Shown here in pieces: positions 5,766-27,464 of a stretch of 33,396 nt of DNA. The stretch lies in assembly GCA_003167475.1 (NCBI GenBank), contig PMTB01000093.1, positions 1 through 33,396 on the forward strand, in the 5' to 3' direction. The notes below the pieces were generated by a model that was given only the letters and a program-made list of their open reading frames with translations, did no database searches and was not told the origin of the DNA. Source of the stretch: a candidate division FCPU426 bacterium (GTDB taxonomy: Bacteria; Oederibacteriota; PGYV01; Palsa-1178). Made by a program: the position numbers and the translations under genes. Position 1 is the first letter of the stretch; the number at the start of each line of letters is the position of its first letter.

Positions 5766-5788
5766 AAAGTATTTTTAAGAGTGGCGCC

Positions 5789-5918
5789 GTCATTGCGAGG
5801 AGCGAGATTTTCAGCGACGAAGCAATCTCTGTACTTTTGTAGGACCGGTATTAAGATCTTATCGGTGGAACTGAGATTGCTTCGTCGGCATGAAACTAAT
5901 GCGCCTCCTCGCAATGAC
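5789..5918. repeat. GTCATTGCGAGGAG repeat element, copy 1 (short form)
   Basis: It starts with GTCATTGCGAGGAG and ends with the complement CTCCTCGCAATGAC. A second, inner inverted repeat is formed by CGACGAAGCAATCTC and GAGATTGCTTCGTCG. Three other copies occur at 24558, 25989 and 27250. Relative to the copy at 25989 this one is inverted: its left arm (TTTCAGCGACGAAG) is that copy's right arm. It fills the tkt-gnd gap and creates a spurious in-frame extension upstream of the true gnd start. Confidence 0.92.
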
Positions 5919-5969
5919 GACGCAACTATTAGACGTCGCAACATTAGTAAAAAATGGGAGGTACTTTAT

Positions 5970-18039: not shown

Positions 18040-18462
18040 ATGGATTCTTCAGGGATGCTTAAAAGTTACATAGAAAAGAAAGGCCTTAAAAAGACATCGG
18101 AACGGGCGGTTATGCTCGAGATAATCAAGAAAATACCGGGTCATTTTGACGCAGAGGGGCTTTTGTCACAGGTAAACAGGAATAATACAAAGGTATCCAG
18201 GGCTTCGGTATACCGTACCATAAAACTTTTTGCCGAAGCCGGTATTATCAAGGAATCCCTGCTGCGAGGGGGCAGGAAAGTATATGAATACGGGCCTGAA
18301 AAGACGCACCATGACCATATGATATGCGTCAAGTGCGGAAAATTATTCGAGTTCAGCGACCCCATGATAGAGAAGCACCAGGAAGAGATATGCAGGAAGC
18401 ACAGGTTCCAAATGACAGGGCATAAACTGGAGATACAGGGAATATGCAACTCGTGCAAATAA
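18040..18462 (+). CDS. Fur family metal-dependent transcriptional regulator
   Basis: A 140-residue DNA-binding repressor of the Fur superfamily. The N-terminal winged helix spans residues about 5-80 (KKTSERAVMLEIIKK ... VSRASVYRTIKLFAEAGII). The dimerisation domain carries the metal-binding HHDHMICVKCGK and a second CNSCK pair at the C-terminus, giving a structural Cys4 zinc site plus the His-rich sensing site. Fur, PerR and Zur cannot be told apart by motif alone. The feoA and feoB genes directly downstream (19-base gap to feoA) favour an iron sensor. A perfect promoter and a palindrome in its 5' region suggest autoregulation and co-regulation of iron uptake. GGAGG precedes the ATG. Confidence 0.93.
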   Translation: MDSSGMLKSYIEKKGLKKTSERAVMLEIIKKIPGHFDAEGLLSQVNRNNTKVSRASVYRTIKLFAEAGIIKESLLRGGRKVYEYGPEKTHHDHMICVKCGKLFEFSDPMIEKHQEEICRKHRFQMTGHKLEIQGICNSCK

Positions 18463-18481
18463 TTGACCCGGAGGTGTTTAT

Positions 18482-18727
18482 ATGAAAATGTCAGATCTCA
18501 AACCAGGCGACAAGGGTACCGTATTAAAGGTGGAACATATGGGCGAGACCACGGGAAGGCTGATGGACCTGGGGCTGCATAAGGGCGCGTCATTTAAAGT
18601 CGTGCGCAAGGCCCCGCTTGGCGACCCCATGGAGATAAAACTCAGGGGCACGCTGCTGGCGTTAAGGATGAAAGAAGCGGAAAGTGTGGTCGTGGAAAAA
18701 GAGATCCCTGCCGCAAAGGAGAAATAA
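18482..18727 (+). CDS. feoA: Ferrous iron transport protein A
   Basis: A small cytoplasmic SH3-like protein of 81 residues that supports FeoB. The family pattern is seen in MKMSDLKPGDKGTVLKV, then GRLMDLGLHKGASFKVV, APLGDPMEIKLRGTLLALR and a closing VVVEKE. It is preceded by GGAGGTG, begins 19 bases after the fur-like gene and ends one base before the feoB start codon. The three genes clearly form an operon. Its exact biochemical action on FeoB is not settled in the literature. Confidence 0.95.
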   Translation: MKMSDLKPGDKGTVLKVEHMGETTGRLMDLGLHKGASFKVVRKAPLGDPMEIKLRGTLLALRMKEAESVVVEKEIPAAKEK

Positions 18728-18728
18728 T

Positions 18729-20870
18729 ATGGTGAAAAAATTGAAAAGTATGACCATAGCCCTTGCCGGCAATCCCAATTCAGGCAAGACGTCGCTTTTT
18801 AACGCGATAGCCGGGACCCACCTTAAGGTCGGCAACTGGGCCGGCGTCACGGTCGAGCGGTATGAGGGATACGTGAATTATAAGGATTACAGGATAAAAC
18901 TTGTTGACCTGCCCGGGACTTATTCGCTCAACGCCTATTCCCCCGAAGAAACTGTCGCCCGGGATTTTATAGCCGGAAAGCAGGCTGATATAATAATAAA
19001 CGTTGTGGACGGCACAAACCTCGAGAGGAACCTGTACCTCACGCACCAGCTTATGGAGCTTGAGCCCGAGATGGTCATAGCGCTGAATATGTACGACGAG
19101 GTGCAGAAAAGCGGGATAACCATAGATTTCAAATACCTCCAGAAACTGCTGGGCTGCCACATAGTGCCGGTAAGCGCCGCTACAAAGAGCGGGATAGATT
19201 CCCTGCTTGACCATGCGGTGAGGGTTTATGAGAAAAAAATATCCATCGCGAAGAACAAGATCTTTTACAGCGAAGTTGTCGAGGAAGCCATATCAAAGGT
19301 AAAGGCGCTCATTGAGACGGACACAGCGCTTACGGCGGCCTATGGCGCCAGGTGGCTGGCTGTGAAACTTTTCGAGAACGACGAGGCGGTCTATAAAATG
19401 CTCAGGGAAAAACCGGTGTGGATGCGCCTTGATGGAAAGCTTGGGCCCATACTTGCCGGGTTGGAAACGGCGATACAGGGAAAGATACCGGAGAGGATAC
19501 TCGAGGATAGGTATGCTTTCGTAAGGGGCGCCATAAAAGAGACGGTGAAAGCGCCCAATGAAGGCAAAGTAACAATGACCGACAGGATAGATTCCGTGCT
19601 GATAGGAAAATACACCGGCCTGCCGATATTCCTGCTTATCATGTGGCTGATATTCCAGGTGACATTCACACTCGGCAAGGTGCCGATGGGCTGGATAGCG
19701 GCGTTTTTTAATTTTGCCGGGGCGCAGGCCTCAGTGCTGCTGCCCGCGGGAAATATACGCTCCATAGTGGTCGACGCGATCATAGCGGGAGTGGGAGGCG
19801 TTGTCGTATTTATACCCAATATACTCCTGCTTTTTTTGGGATTATCCTTTCTTGAGGCCACGGGATATATGGCCCGCGCCGCGTTTGTTGTGGACAAGGT
19901 GTTCCATAAGATCGGCCTGCACGGAAAATCATTCATACCCATGGTCACCGGTTTCGGCTGTTCCGTCCCTGCTTTTATGGCGTGCAGGACGTTAAAGAGC
20001 CGCAGCGACCGGCTGGCAACCATGATGGTCATACCGTTCATGAGCTGCGGCGCGAAGCTCCCGGTGTATATACTCCTGATAGGGGCTTTTTTTCCTGTGC
20101 AAATGGCCGGGAATATCCTCTTCGGGGTATATTTGTTCGGGATACTCGTGGCCATACTTTCCGCCAAACTGTTCAAATCGACGATATTCAGGGGGCAGTC
20201 CGAGCCTTTCGTAATGGAGCTGCCGGTTTACAGGATGCCGTCCATACAGAGCGTACTCATGCAGATGTGGCTTAAGGCCTGGATGTACATAAAAAAAGCC
20301 GGGACCACCATTCTTGCCGCGTCGCTTATAATTTGGTTTGCGGCGAATTATCCCGTCAATAAGGCGCTTGAAAACACGATGAACGCGGACGCTGTTTTAC
20401 AAAGCGCGGGTAAAAGCCCCGTGGAAAAAAGCGTTATAATGGAAAAATATAAAAATGAATACGCTGCCGCGCGGCTTGAGCACTCTTTTGCTGGCATGAT
20501 TGGAAAGGGATTCGAGCCGGTCCTGAAGCCGCTGGGTTTTGACTGGCGTATCAACACCGCGCTGGTGTCAGGCCTGGCGGCAAAGGAAATAGTTGTGTCG
20601 ACCATGGGCACCATATATTCCATGGGGCAGATAGGCCATGAGACCGGCGGGCTTGTGAACAGGCTCAGGCAGGACAAGGCATACAACCCGGCTGTCGCGC
20701 TTTCGCTGATAATTTTTGTCCTGCTCTACGTCCCGTGCCTGGCCGCGACCGCTGTGTTCCATAAGGAAGCCGGGGAATTAAGGATGACCATTTTTTACAT
20801 AGCATACGCAATGGCGACGGCCTGGGTAATGGCGTTTATGGTTTACAGGGTGGCGCTGTTGTTTTTGTAG
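18729..20870 (+). CDS. feoB: Ferrous iron transport protein B
   Basis: Inner-membrane ferrous iron importer with an N-terminal G domain, 713 residues. G1 is GNPNSGKT (residues 14-21), G2 includes Thr41, G3 is DLPG (60-63), G4 is NMYD and G5 is VSAATKSG. The membrane part has two Gate repeats, marked by GFGCSVPAFMACRTL and SCGAKLPVYILL, whose Cys residues line the presumed iron path. The ATG at 18729 lies one base after the feoA stop, with AAAGGAG inside the end of feoA. The stop codon TAG (20868-20870) is part of the TGTAGGGGCGGA repeat, so the last codons border a repeat insertion. No feoC is seen downstream. Confidence 0.97.
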   Translation: MVKKLKSMTIALAGNPNSGKTSLFNAIAGTHLKVGNWAGVTVERYEGYVNYKDYRIKLVDLPGTYSLNAYSPEETVARDFIAGKQADIIINVVDGTNLERNLYLTHQLMELEPEMVIALNMYDEVQKSGITIDFKYLQKLLGCHIVPVSAATKSGIDSLLDHAVRVYEKKISIAKNKIFYSEVVEEAISKVKALIETDTALTAAYGARWLAVKLFENDEAVYKMLREKPVWMRLDGKLGPILAGLETAIQGKIPERILEDRYAFVRGAIKETVKAPNEGKVTMTDRIDSVLIGKYTGLPIFLLIMWLIFQVTFTLGKVPMGWIAAFFNFAGAQASVLLPAGNIRSIVVDAIIAGVGGVVVFIPNILLLFLGLSFLEATGYMARAAFVVDKVFHKIGLHGKSFIPMVTGFGCSVPAFMACRTLKSRSDRLATMMVIPFMSCGAKLPVYILLIGAFFPVQMAGNILFGVYLFGILVAILSAKLFKSTIFRGQSEPFVMELPVYRMPSIQSVLMQMWLKAWMYIKKAGTTILAASLIIWFAANYPVNKALENTMNADAVLQSAGKSPVEKSVIMEKYKNEYAAARLEHSFAGMIGKGFEPVLKPLGFDWRINTALVSGLAAKEIVVSTMGTIYSMGQIGHETGGLVNRLRQDKAYNPAVALSLIIFVLLYVPCLAATAVFHKEAGELRMTIFYIAYAMATAWVMAFMVYRVALLFL

Positions 20871-21119: not shown

Positions 21120-22292
21120 ATGAAAAACCTCACGATTTACAACCCGGTAAAGATACACTTTGGCGCAGGAGAGATAGAAAACGCCGGGCACCTGGCCAAA
21201 TCCCTGGGTAAAAAAGCCGTGATTGTCACCGGCAAAAGTTCAACAAAAAAAACAGGCCTTCTTGACAAGGTCGTCAAACTTCTTGAAAAAGAAGGCGTCA
21301 AGTCCGTTGTTTACGCCGGCGTAACTCCAAACCCGAAGAACACCGAAGTTGAGGAAGCCGCAGCCCTTGCCGTAAAGGAAGGTTGTGATTTTGTCATAGG
21401 CTTGGGGGGAGGGTCGGCCATGGACGCGGCAAAGGGCGTAGCTGTGGTTGCCGGAAGCGGCGGGAAATTGTGGGACTACATAGGGATGCCGGGAAAAAAA
21501 GCAAAGGACATAGGAAAATCGCTTCCGATAATATTGATACCGACATTGTCTGCCACGGGTTCAGAAGGCAATCCGGCGGCTGTGTTTTCAAATCCCGTAT
21601 TAAACCAGAAAGCGGCCATTTACAACCCGGATAAGATATTTCCCGCGATTTCAATTGTGGACCCTGACCTCACATTGAGCGTGCCGCCGAAACAGACTGC
21701 CGAAGGCATCATAGACGTCGTCATGCACGTGCTTGAGGAGTACTTAACCGGCGAAATTGACTGCGATATGCAGGACAGGTTTACTGAAGGCATAATACTT
21801 ACCTGCATGGAGCAGGGCGTTAAAGCCATAAAAAATCCCGGCGACAAACACGCCAGGGCGCAGATAGCGCTCTCGAGCACGGTCGCGCTGCAGGGCCTTC
21901 CTAATTCAGGCAGGGCAGGAGCCTGGGTGGTCCACCCGCTTGAGCACGCAGTTACGGCTTTTTATGACAACATAGCTCACGGAGCGGGGATAGCGGCAAT
22001 ACTTCCGTCGTACCTGAAATATCTTGGAGAGGTTAAGCCTGATAAAGTGCATCAGCTCGCGGATAGGCTGTTTGACGCGCCAAAAGACATAAAAGGCGAA
22101 CTGAAAACGGCTTTCTGTATAGAAAACATAAGGAAGTTTATCACGGATATCGGGCTTTCTGACAATTTCAAGGACCTCGATATCGGCATGGAAAACATGG
22201 AAAAGTTCGCGGACAAAGTGATAGAGGTCGGGGGACTGCCGTGGAAGCTTGACAGGGAACGGCTGATACAGATATTTAAGGACGCTTTTTAG
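21120..22292 (+). CDS. Iron-containing alcohol dehydrogenase
   Basis: A 390-residue NAD(P)-dependent, Fe-type (group III) dehydrogenase, of the kind that interconverts aldehydes and alcohols in fermentation. Visible parts are the N-terminal FGAGEIENAG, the nucleotide-binding FVIGLGGGSAMDAAKG, and LIPTLSATGSEGNPAAV. The metal ligands lie in IIDVVMHVLEEYL (Asp and His) and HPLEHAVTAFYDNIAHGAGIA (two His). The pattern resembles butanol-dehydrogenase-like enzymes, but the substrate is unproven. AAGGAG precedes the start. The last 81 residues recur as a separate truncated copy at 23416-23661. A hairpin terminator follows at 22430. Confidence 0.95.
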   Translation: MKNLTIYNPVKIHFGAGEIENAGHLAKSLGKKAVIVTGKSSTKKTGLLDKVVKLLEKEGVKSVVYAGVTPNPKNTEVEEAAALAVKEGCDFVIGLGGGSAMDAAKGVAVVAGSGGKLWDYIGMPGKKAKDIGKSLPIILIPTLSATGSEGNPAAVFSNPVLNQKAAIYNPDKIFPAISIVDPDLTLSVPPKQTAEGIIDVVMHVLEEYLTGEIDCDMQDRFTEGIILTCMEQGVKAIKNPGDKHARAQIALSSTVALQGLPNSGRAGAWVVHPLEHAVTAFYDNIAHGAGIAAILPSYLKYLGEVKPDKVHQLADRLFDAPKDIKGELKTAFCIENIRKFITDIGLSDNFKDLDIGMENMEKFADKVIEVGGLPWKLDRERLIQIFKDAF

Positions 22293-22429
22293 AATGTGCG
22301 TAACCGCCTTATTTGCACAGATGGCGCACGTTTCGCCATTTCCCGTCACCGGAAGGTAGTTATAGATGTTTTATACCATTTCTCTTGTGGGGTGCGATTG
22401 CGCCGCCACCCTGCCTAAATACATACAAG

Positions 22430-22468
22430 ACAAGAACCAGCCGGACATTTAGTCCGGCCGGTTCTTGT
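22430..22468. terminator. Probable bidirectional terminator
   Basis: Bases 22430-22446 and 22452-22468 form a 17 bp stem with one mismatch and a five-base loop. It is GC-rich at the loop side (GCCGGAC / GTCCGGC), with A- and T-rich flanks. It lies between the rightward alcohol dehydrogenase gene and the leftward BON gene, so it could stop transcripts from both sides. The rest of 22293-22492 shows no convincing gene. Confidence 0.7.
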
Positions 22469-22492
22469 AATATAATTAAAATAATTTGTTAT

Positions 22493-23260
22493 TTATTTGA
22501 TCTTTTCTATTGTTATCATGTTCACGACGCTCTTAACACCGTCTATATCGTTAACAAGTTTTGCCGCCTTATCCTTTTCAGCCTGGTTCTTCGCGATACC
22601 TGAAAGCGTGACCACGCCCTTATCTGTTGAAACTTTTGCATCCAGCTTGCTTGTTGAACGGTGAAACGCCAGTGTCATCTTTGCCTGTGCCGTGACAGAC
22701 GCGTCGTCAATACTTTTGCCTAAATTTATTTTTTCGTCTTTTTCGGCCCGCAGTACCTTCATCTCATTTTTTACATCCTTTACGCCTTCGACATCTTTCG
22801 CGTATTCTTCTATCAGTTCTTTCTGTGCCTGCGTGTTTGTTATGCCCTTAAGGGTTACTATGCTATCCTTAACATAAACTTCAGTTCTGCCGTCCCTTAC
22901 GCTTGAATGGAACGTGAGGAGTGTTTTTATTTTCAGTCCAAGCCATGTGTCTGAAATTACATCCGTACTTGCGCCTTTGTATTCCAGTTTGTTCTCTACG
23001 CGTTTGACGCCCGGAAGCCCGGATACCGTGTCGTTGGCCAGCGACTTATGAAATTCCTGTGTTACCGTTCCGGTCAATGTTACAACGCCTTTTTTGGAAT
23101 CAATTCTGATGTCATCCCCGTTAAGGTACGTTTTAAAAACATAAGATTTCTCAGCCGATGATTTGATACGGTCATCGGTGGTGGATGCAAACAAAGACGC
23201 TCCCGCCGCGAACAAAACTGCCAGAACCGTTAGAACCACTACAGAACAAAACTTTTTCAT
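22493..23260 (-). CDS. Exported protein with three BON domains
   Basis: A 255-residue protein with a signal peptide (MKKFCSVVVLTVLAVLFAAGASLFA). Three tandem BON domains follow, at residues about 29-94, 103-170 and 184-252. Each has the typical core (KKGVVTLTGTV, KDSIVTLKGIT, DKGVVTLSGIA) and a closing GVxxVxN. BON domains are thought to bind phospholipid or interfaces and appear in OsmY-like periplasmic stress proteins. The ATG is preceded by AGGAGG on the minus strand; an in-frame ATG 60 bases upstream would precede the signal peptide. It lies between the intact alcohol dehydrogenase gene and its truncated copy. Confidence 0.9.
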   Translation of the reverse strand: MKKFCSVVVLTVLAVLFAAGASLFASTTDDRIKSSAEKSYVFKTYLNGDDIRIDSKKGVVTLTGTVTQEFHKSLANDTVSGLPGVKRVENKLEYKGASTDVISDTWLGLKIKTLLTFHSSVRDGRTEVYVKDSIVTLKGITNTQAQKELIEEYAKDVEGVKDVKNEMKVLRAEKDEKINLGKSIDDASVTAQAKMTLAFHRSTSKLDAKVSTDKGVVTLSGIAKNQAEKDKAAKLVNDIDGVKSVVNMITIEKIK

Positions 23261-23302
23261 TTCAATTCCTCCTAGTTTTTTTGTCATGTCTTCCACCTGT
23301 GT

Positions 23303-23331
23303 TTGACAGCCTGATTGCATATGACTATATA
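23303..23331 (+). promoter_or_regulatory. Near-consensus promoter pointing into the alcohol dehydrogenase remnant
   Basis: TTGACA at 23303-23308, exactly 17 bases, then TATATA at 23326-23331, reading rightward. It is 55 bases before the ATG of the truncated alcohol dehydrogenase frame, and it lies in the leader of the leftward BON gene. It may be the kept promoter of a lost gene, or a site serving an unrecognised short RNA. Confidence 0.55.
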
Positions 23332-23385
23332 GGATAAATATTACACCGGCGAGGAAATTTTGCGTATACTTGGATTCCTCATATA

Positions 23386-23661
23386 ATGGACTTTATTCCG
23401 TCGCGAAATTTCGAAGTGCACCAGCTCGCGGACAGGTTGTTTGACGCGCCAAAAGATATCAAGGGCGAACTGAAAACAGCTTTTTGCATGGAAAATATGC
23501 AGAAGTTTATCACGGATATAGGACTTTCCGATAATTTCAAGGACCTTGATATCGGCATGGAAAATATGGAAAAGTTCGCGGACAAGGTAATCGAGGTCGG
23601 GGGTTTGCCGTGGAAACTTGACAGGGAACGGCTTATACAAATATATAAAGACGCTTTTTAA
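23386..23661 (+). pseudogene. Truncated second copy of the iron alcohol dehydrogenase (C-terminal 81 residues)
   Basis: From VHQLADRLFDAPKD at 23416 to IQIYKDAF at the stop, this frame repeats the last 81 residues of the dehydrogenase at 21120, with only four amino-acid changes (two Ile to Met, Arg to Gln, Phe to Tyr). About 25 further codons differ only silently. The similarity ends sharply at about 23413. The first ten residues (MDFIPSRNFE) are unrelated and have no ribosome binding site. The nucleotide-binding half and the iron ligands are missing, so it cannot be an active dehydrogenase. It is best read as the remnant of a tandem paralog that lost its 5' part. A small expressed peptide is possible but not supported by a Shine-Dalgarno sequence. 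Confidence 0.85.
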
Positions 23662-23699
23662 AGGCTGTGTACCTTCATTGGTTGCGTTCGATAGTTCCT

Positions 23700-23795
23700 A
23701 CGCCTTTGCAATATTACAAGCGGGGCGAAGGACTTGTGAGCAGATTGAACAGATTGAGCAGGTTGATTTAGCAAGCTTGGTAGGTATTATAATAG
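23700..23795. repeat. Diverged direct repeat, first copy
   Basis: The stretch matches 23935-24028 in order: CGC(C/T)TTGCAATATTA(C/T)AAG, GGGGC(G/A)AAG, GAGCAG, then GATTTAGCAAGCT and GGTAGGTATT. Differences and small gaps are frequent. No protein frame is conserved between the copies. It fills part of the 526-base gene-free gap 23662-24187. Confidence 0.7.
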
Positions 23796-23836
23796 GGCAC
23801 TTCTTGTTCCTGCCTTTTCCGCTTTAGAATTTGTAG

Positions 23837-23856
23837 AGAGGGGGCTTGCCCCCTCT
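23837..23856. repeat. GC-rich hairpin in the gene-free gap
   Basis: AGAGGGGGC, two bases, then GCCCCCTCT, a perfect nine-base palindrome between the two direct repeats. The minimal two-base loop would open further in RNA. It has no T tract. The gap 23662-24187 otherwise holds only the direct repeats and a promoter. Confidence 0.6.
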
Positions 23857-23934
23857 AAACAGGGACGGGGGAAATACGCTGGTTTGAGATCAATGTCTAT
23901 TGCTGCGGGCTTGGTCACTCGCATGCTCGTGACG

Positions 23935-24028
23935 CACGCCCTTGCAATATTATAAGTGGGGCAAAGGGCATGAGAGAGGTGAGCAGTAGAGAGTAGATTT
24001 AGCAAGCTCGGTAGGTATTGTATTATAG
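23935..24028. repeat. Diverged direct repeat, second copy
   Basis: Second copy of the sequence at 23700-23795, in the same orientation, starting ACGCCCTTGCAATATTATAAG and ending in GGTAGGTATTG and TATTATAG. Together the copies bracket about 140 bases with the GC-rich hairpin. It may be the trace of an old duplication. Confidence 0.7.
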
Positions 24029-24117
24029 AAGGACAAAGCCACTTAATAAAACGCATTGGGAACCTGATTGGTTCAAAATTCGGGATTTGTTATTATGTAT
24101 TTGTCTTATAGCGATAA

Positions 24118-24187: not shown

Positions 24188-24547
24188 ATGGACAGGGTGA
24201 GGTTCAGGGAATTTGAAGGAAAGAAAATCATAGTGATGGACATTGACAACTGCTCAATAGAGGAGTTTGAGGCGGTTCTGGTCACATCAGCCGAAATGAT
24301 ACGCAAAGAACCGCTTGGTTCAGTGCTCTCCCTTGCCGCCGGCGGAAACGGCACCCCGATATTTACAAACAGGGAGATGTTCGCGGAATACCTGAAATTA
24401 AATGCGCCGCATATCAAAGCGTCCGTCGTATCGGGCCTGCCAAAGATGAAAGCCGCCTTGTTCCAGGCCGTTGTTTTTATCACCGGAAGGCAGTTGAAAA
24501 TGTTTGATACTATGGAAGAGGCTTTTAACTGGCTGGTAGAGCAGTAA
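24188..24547 (+). CDS. SpoIIAA/STAS-like small protein
   Basis: A 119-residue soluble protein. The alternating strand/helix pattern (KKIIVMDIDNCS, AVLVTSAEMIRKE, GSVLSLAAGG) and the ending FDTMEEAFNWLVEQ resemble SpoIIAA-like/STAS-like domains, which often end in a similar FxxxEEAxxWL segment. Such proteins act in anti-sigma partner switching or lipid binding, but this stand-alone member has no kinase or sigma factor beside it. The Ser usually phosphorylated in true anti-anti-sigma factors cannot be placed with confidence. It has its own promoter and no convincing operon partner. The function is unknown. Confidence 0.65.
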   Translation: MDRVRFREFEGKKIIVMDIDNCSIEEFEAVLVTSAEMIRKEPLGSVLSLAAGGNGTPIFTNREMFAEYLKLNAPHIKASVVSGLPKMKAALFQAVVFITGRQLKMFDTMEEAFNWLVEQ

Positions 24548-24557
24548 ACCGTCGGCC

Positions 24558-24795
24558 GTCATTGCGAGGAGCCGTTCTTGGTTTATGGCGACGAAGCCTG
24601 CAGTCCATGGAACATGGAAATCTCAGTTCCACCGATAAGCTCTGTTTGTGAAGAACCTGTGTTGCTCCGCAGGCTTTGATTGAGACCAGATTGCCATGAA
24701 CCACTCGCAAGCTCGGGTTCATGGCGCGCTTCACCAGAGTAGAGCCTGCCATGTACCTGAGCTACTGCGAATGGTACATGGCTCCTCGCAATGAC
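24558..24795. repeat. GTCATTGCGAGGAG repeat element, copy 2 (long form)
   Basis: It starts GTCATTGCGAGGAG and ends CTCCTCGCAATGAC. Its right 135 bases (24661-24795) differ from 27330-27464 at a single base. Inside that part are two 10 bp hairpins with near-identical stems: GCCATGAACC/GGTTCATGGC (24693-24725) and GCCATGTACC/GGTACATGGC (24748-24782). It separates the convergent SpoIIAA-like and oxidoreductase genes and fills most of the 284-base gap. Confidence 0.93.
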
Positions 24796-25938: not shown

Positions 25939-25988
25939 TTGGAACCTCCCTGTATTTTTTTGACGGCAGATGCCGTATGCGGAGTGCT

Positions 25989-26119
25989 GTCATTGCGAGG
26001 AGGCGCACTTGGCTTATGCCGACGAAGCAATCTCTGTTCTTTGATAAGCCTTGAAACACGGGCTTCTGCAAAAAGACAGAGATTGCTTCGTCGCTGAAAG
26101 TCGTGCTCCTCGCAATGAC
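25989..26119. repeat. GTCATTGCGAGGAG repeat element, copy 3 (short form)
   Basis: Same outer inverted repeat and inner CGACGAAGCAATCTC/GAGATTGCTTCGTCG stem as the copy at 5789, but in the opposite orientation. It starts 50 bases upstream of the oxidoreductase start codon on the minus strand, so it probably lies in or near that gene's promoter or leader. Confidence 0.92.
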
Positions 26120-26310
26120 AGACAACGCAGGGTGTTTAAACAGGAGTTATTATAATATAACAATGTTACAATTCATATAATAAAAGTATTTATAATGAGG
26201 AATTATTGAAACGTGAAAGGGGTTTGCATCCTGTTCCTGGAACTATTTTGCCTTGTTCATTGCCAATTCCTGTGATATCATTAATAAAATATCTTATAGG
26301 AGGCTTTTCA
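26120..26310 (+). other. AT-rich leader region before rubredoxin
   Basis: This is the remainder of the 372-base gap after the repeat. It is AT-rich, with several TATAAT-like strings (26150-26210) and a small palindrome GTTATTATAATATAAC at 26145-26160. No coding frame or clear -35/-10 pair can be chosen with confidence. The rubredoxin ribosome binding site AGGAGG lies at 26298-26303. Confidence 0.4.
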
Positions 26311-27249: not shown

Positions 27250-27464
27250 GTCATTGCGAGGAGCCGTTTTTGGTTTATGGCGACGAAGCAATCTCTGTTC
27301 CACGATAAGTTCTGTTTTAAACGGCCCGCGTTGCTCCGCAGGCTTTGATTGAGATCAGATTGCCATGAACCACTCGCAAGCTCGGGTTCATGGCGCGCTT
27401 CACCAGAGTAGAGCCTGCCATGTACCTGAGCTACTGCGAATGGTACATGGCTCCTCGCAATGAC
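27250..27464. repeat. GTCATTGCGAGGAG repeat element, copy 4 (long form)
   Basis: Same architecture as the copy at 24558, with the two inner hairpins, and 134 of 135 bases identical in the right part. The left part differs by having CGACGAAGCAATCTC like the short copies. It takes up most of the 291-base gap between the TVP38-like gene and the ABC operon, ending only 37 bases before the ABC ATPase start codon. Confidence 0.93.

Follow-up and report, generated by a model that had tools for sequence, protein, structure and literature searches.

The 3' end of an iron-containing alcohol dehydrogenase (Fe-ADH) gene occurs twice on a contig of a candidate division FCPU426 bacterium (PMTB01000093.1, positions 1 to 33,396; we refer to these 33,396 nucleotides as the window)—once in an intact gene, and once as a 5'-truncated fragment beyond a gene with BON domains. 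With moderate confidence, we read the fragment as what remains of the resident Fe-ADH 3' end following one acquisition of related DNA. The features needed for the argument are, in order along the window:

21120..22292, + strand: intact Fe-ADH gene, 390 aa (Pfam Fe-ADH, 2.7e-52; ADH_Fe_C, 3.9e-28).
22430..22468, no strand: 17-bp inverted repeat between the convergent ADH and BON genes, a probable bidirectional terminator.
22493..23260, - strand: OsmY-like gene; its product has a hydrophobic N-terminal leader and three BON domains (Pfam BON, 3 stretches, 4.5e-46).
23414..23414, no strand: junction where the ADH homology starts, with an abrupt end of homology; a proposed illegitimate or circle-closure join.
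23414..23661, + strand: 5'-truncated ADH tail, 81 codons plus stop; the proposed displaced resident 3' end, which would now be a pseudogene fragment.
23662..24030, + strand: genus-specific repeat DNA abutting the fragment stop, first a single shortened copy of a hairpin repeat with a 32-bp head, then a second, partial unit.
24188..24547, + strand: gene of 119 aa, the marker for the resident side (70% identity in the congener, L003/L038; 38% in L040).

The truncation of the second copy is seen directly. The initial annotation had noticed that the tail of the dehydrogenase at 21120 recurs beyond a BON gene on the opposite strand, and this is confirmed: the last 81 codons of the gene recur without gaps at 23416-23658. 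At the DNA level the homology extends over 247 bp (22045-22291 against 23414-23660) with 87.9% identity and no gaps (BLASTN E ~1e-79); its right edge is the stop codon, its left edge is abrupt at 23414, and a BLASTN comparison of both copies gave no trace of ADH homology upstream of that position. The fragment corresponds to about the last fifth of the ADH gene, sits 1.37 kb downstream of the matching end in the intact copy, and contains neither indels nor internal stops. No second copy of 23261-23413 was found in the bacterium's own genome or in three relatives. The best PDB match of the intact enzyme is 1vlj, an NADH-dependent butanol dehydrogenase (1.8e-67). Upstream of the Fe-ADH gene, at 18040-20870, are genes for a Fur-like regulator, FeoA, and FeoB, in the same order as in the congener, which suggests an iron-linked neighborhood.

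The bias towards silent differences between the copies is also seen directly. The copies differ at 30 bases over the 81 sense codons that they share, and these differences fall into 25 silent codons and four replacements (I334M, I337M, R338Q, and F386Y in ADH numbering)—the initial annotation had counted about 25 silent and four amino-acid changes, and our recount gives the same figures. The stop codons differ as well (TAG/TAA), a silent change outside the 25; third positions hold 25/30 of the base differences, and 23/30 are transitions. Random mutation of the ADH tail sequence would yield 72-80% replacements, depending on the transition bias. A fragment branch that had been neutral since the split would be expected to carry ~20-70 replacements, as computed for the 8-18 silent changes possible on that branch, and the total seen is four (P ~1e-5 or less); the 95% upper bound on the neutral share of the branch is ~0.13-0.44, and near 0.2 if the silent changes are split evenly. 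A recent tandem duplication with one drifting copy was rejected, as replacements lie far below the neutral share.

When the congener serves as outgroup, 10 silent changes but no clear replacement map to the intact ADH branch, and the clearly polarized replacements, I334M and R338Q, both fall on the fragment branch. The earlier proposal that the copies diverged as two full-length selected genes, one of them truncated later, is supported by the silent bias, the neutral-drift calculation, and this polarization; that no more than roughly 15-45% of the fragment branch can have been neutral argues that both copies diverged within selected genes and that the truncation is recent. The four replacements, with the clear ones on the fragment branch, fit long selection and then a short time as a fragment.

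Two related loci were compared, one in the congener (L003/L038, apparently the same record) and one in another genus of the family (L040). In both genomes a single ADH gene is followed directly by the 119-aa gene, at 143 and 108 bp, respectively, and the genes downstream of the 119-aa gene are also the same; in the window, 1.9 kb separate the ADH stop from the 119-aa gene, with the BON gene and the ADH tail in between. This ancestral adjacency is seen directly, as is the absence of the BON gene from the relatives: the congener has no match to it, the rest of the family and order have weak (27%) or no matches, and its nearest relatives, 54% and 49% identical, are in another family of the phylum. 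The BON gene appears, on these matches, to have been acquired in this lineage. Its match to the OsmY model is below the cut-off, and its start is probably 23260, an ATG preceded by AGGAGG, rather than 23320. The 119-aa gene has no Pfam or NCBIfam match and is fast-evolving, yet it stays beside ADH; it carries a conserved promoter-like site, TTGAC(A/T)-TATACT.

Because the relatives lack the BON gene and have ADH beside the 119-aa gene, and because no stand-alone tail was found in the other genomes searched, it is most reasonable to treat the BON insertion and the duplicated ADH end as a single change in this lineage. The term "tandem paralog", under which the fragment had been annotated, is supported as regards selected divergence at full length; it is not supported as regards tandem paralogy, the ancestral locus having had one ADH directly before the 119-aa gene. 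An old duplication in situ fits less well than import—the second tail came with a BON gene that is absent from relatives.

Which of the two tails is resident must be considered separately. The tails are 88% identical to each other and each is 79% identical to the congener, whose state is shared at 11 sites by one and 10 by the other, a tie; they split after the congener branched off, and strains of one species are normally less far apart than these two tails. Compared with the congener intergenic region, the 3' flank of the fragment matches solely in the stretch that immediately precedes the 119-aa gene; the corresponding flank of the intact copy shares similarities of just 8-13 bp with that region. 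The fragment flank consists of repeats abundant in the bacterium's own genome, which agrees weakly with the fragment being the resident end; we infer this polarity by parsimony.

In the import that we prefer, the incoming DNA would have come from another lineage of the genus, carrying the 3' part of its own ADH gene and then the convergent BON gene. Homologous recombination inside the resident ADH would have produced a complete hybrid gene, resident in its 5' part and switching to donor sequence for its 3' end at some point from ~22045 onwards; the other end would have been joined without homology, through homology-facilitated illegitimate recombination (HFIR) if the incoming molecule was linear, or through one crossover if it was a small circle bearing an ADH end truncated on its 5' side. 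A displacement of 1.37 kb would have carried the resident 3' end downstream past the BON gene, still beside the 119-aa gene, and this end may now be an untranslated relic. From the arrangement of the locus we infer the donor, the recombination route, and that the intact gene is a hybrid: the BON region, absent from relatives, has ADH homology at its border—an insertion without resident homology beside a homologous anchor—and the duplicate has diverged as two selected lineages (25 silent changes against four replacements), as an import scar should. Import is favored because the junction lies inside a gene, with no second illegitimate join needed, and because the tails split after the congener at a distance above usual within-species variation. 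However, when the intact ADH is compared with the congener in a sliding window, the profile is flat and shows no mosaic step, although silent sites are near saturation there; illegitimate closure is also rare in published experiments (PMC3240628). A ComEC match in the genome is weak and below cut-off, and argues neither for nor against natural uptake.

The main rival to import is an origin from in-genome paralogs, which we regard as possible but rather unlikely: the ADH gene would have been duplicated in tandem after the congener branched off, both copies would have been under selection, and a BON insertion with deletion would then have cost the second copy its 5' four-fifths. The silent bias and the order of the copies fit this origin too, and there are other paralogs of the dehydrogenase family in these genomes, ~33% identical; however, it needs three events (duplication, long selected coexistence, and insertion with deletion), no relative has two close ADH copies, and no remnant of a second ADH 5' part was found between 22293 and 23413.

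Site-specific integration at the ADH 3' end is improbable. In Escherichia coli, the element e14 in icd brings a mostly silent-changed 3' end, and the old end is displaced as a pseudogene; here, an element bringing an ADH 3' end of its own would have made the gene whole again and shifted the resident end away, and all of it but the BON gene would later have been deleted. The geometry is the same, with an intact gene whose end carries silent changes, then cargo, then a displaced end. In contrast to e14, no integrase, prophage genes, or attachment core were found—an integrase, an excisionase, and an att-like repeat are all missing in 22293-23413, where the only gene is BON—and a shared end of 247 bp is longer than one would expect of an attachment site.

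An assembly chimera is quite improbable. Two co-occurring strains or species of the metagenome would have supplied, respectively, a path from an ADH copy to BON and a path from ADH to the 119-aa gene, falsely joined. The assembly is a draft (281 contigs, 87% complete), the tails differ like those of two species, and there is no independent record of the junction, for which a search with the exact junction 20-mer gave no match; against this, the reported contamination is low (0.3), no shared sequence of a length that could confuse an assembler lies at the 23414 join, and the flank of this join occurs only once in the genome. The ADH protein gave nothing in viral contigs.

The repeat directly after the fragment stop has a 32-bp head, AGGCTGTNNACCTTCATTGGTNNCGTTCGATA, and then hairpins ending GCAATATTATAA. 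There are 15 copies of this repeat in the bacterium's own genome, nine of them on one 24-kb contig; the congener has three, and 15 other relatives have none (copies were located at L063/L064 on contig C101, L065, L066, L067, and L070); most of the 15 start within ~10 nt of stop codons, in the orientation of the gene, and full copies fold into hairpins. The 24-kb contig carries mixed genes—an MFS pump, serpin-like, ankyrin-like, LacI-like, and others—and its layout is similar to that of a cassette array. A candidate integron integrase behind the repeat array was discarded, the only matches being tyrosine-recombinase-like and far below cut-off, as in all control genomes, and an Rfam scan of the whole window returned nothing. 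A dispersed palindromic intergenic repeat (cattgcgaggagc...cgcaatgac) occurs at 24558-24795, 27250-27464, 25986-26121, and 5776-5931, in copies up to 94% identical. Since the repeat abutting the fragment stop also follows gene ends along the 24-kb contig, the ADH tail could be the end of a gene in a genus-specific, repeat-delimited, cassette-like array in which the repeat acts in gene capture; we judge this highly improbable.

Lastly, the fragment itself may be asked for a function. The initial annotation had pointed to a near-consensus promoter at 23303-23331 reading into the fragment, and had suggested that the C-terminal piece might still be selected. The site (+ strand), read directly, is TTGACA-17-TATATA, lacks the -7 T, and is unlisted by the promoter scanner; with four promoter-like sites in the region against 4.3 (sd 2.3) in shuffles, it is not above chance. 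The fragment covers only positions 115-194 of the ADH_Fe_C profile, with a Pfam score below cut-off; it takes in no more than the final part of the helical C-terminal domain and lacks the nucleotide-binding domain and metal ligands of a group III iron-containing ADH, all of the ligands presumably lying upstream of this part. None of the possible starts of the fragment has a Shine-Dalgarno sequence, and the other genomes searched contain no comparable fragment; continued selection is thus not borne out, and the fragment most likely has no role. That 23386-23661 encodes a small protein of 91 aa which is expressed and under selection is scarcely credible: the frame is open without indels and the replacement rate is low, but the Shine-Dalgarno that most neighboring genes have is missing, the piece lacks a cofactor site and metal ligands, the clear replacements are on its own branch (10 silent and none replaced on the intact branch), and no other stand-alone copy occurs among the genomes searched.

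DNA import from a close relative is an ordinary route of bacterial genome change, and the general process is known; the value of this locus is mainly that of one clean case in an uncultured lineage, where silent-change counts combined with synteny can tell a gene-import scar apart from a duplicate that drifts. The preferred import also predicts that an apparently intact metabolic ADH gene is a hybrid. Both halves of the proposed route have published counterparts. In E. coli, single crossovers of circles lacking part of the homologous lacZ end gave duplications of 109-950 bp (PMC3240628); as in those HFIR and single-crossover duplications, foreign DNA would have entered here via one homologous anchor. 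In contrast to them, the present event is reconstructed from one genome, with the donor, the anchor limits, and any 3-10 bp microhomology at the illegitimate join unseen, and the copies differ by 12%. An HFIR-like route has also been proposed for the shifted-back 3' ends of effectors in Vibrio cholerae T6SS clusters (PMC5361080). There, and in Rhs "orphan" 3' ends, a new 3' module comes in and the old end is shifted downstream, as we propose for this locus; the V. cholerae cargo consists of effector-immunity modules (PMC5361080), whereas the present case involves a metabolic enzyme together with a BON gene.
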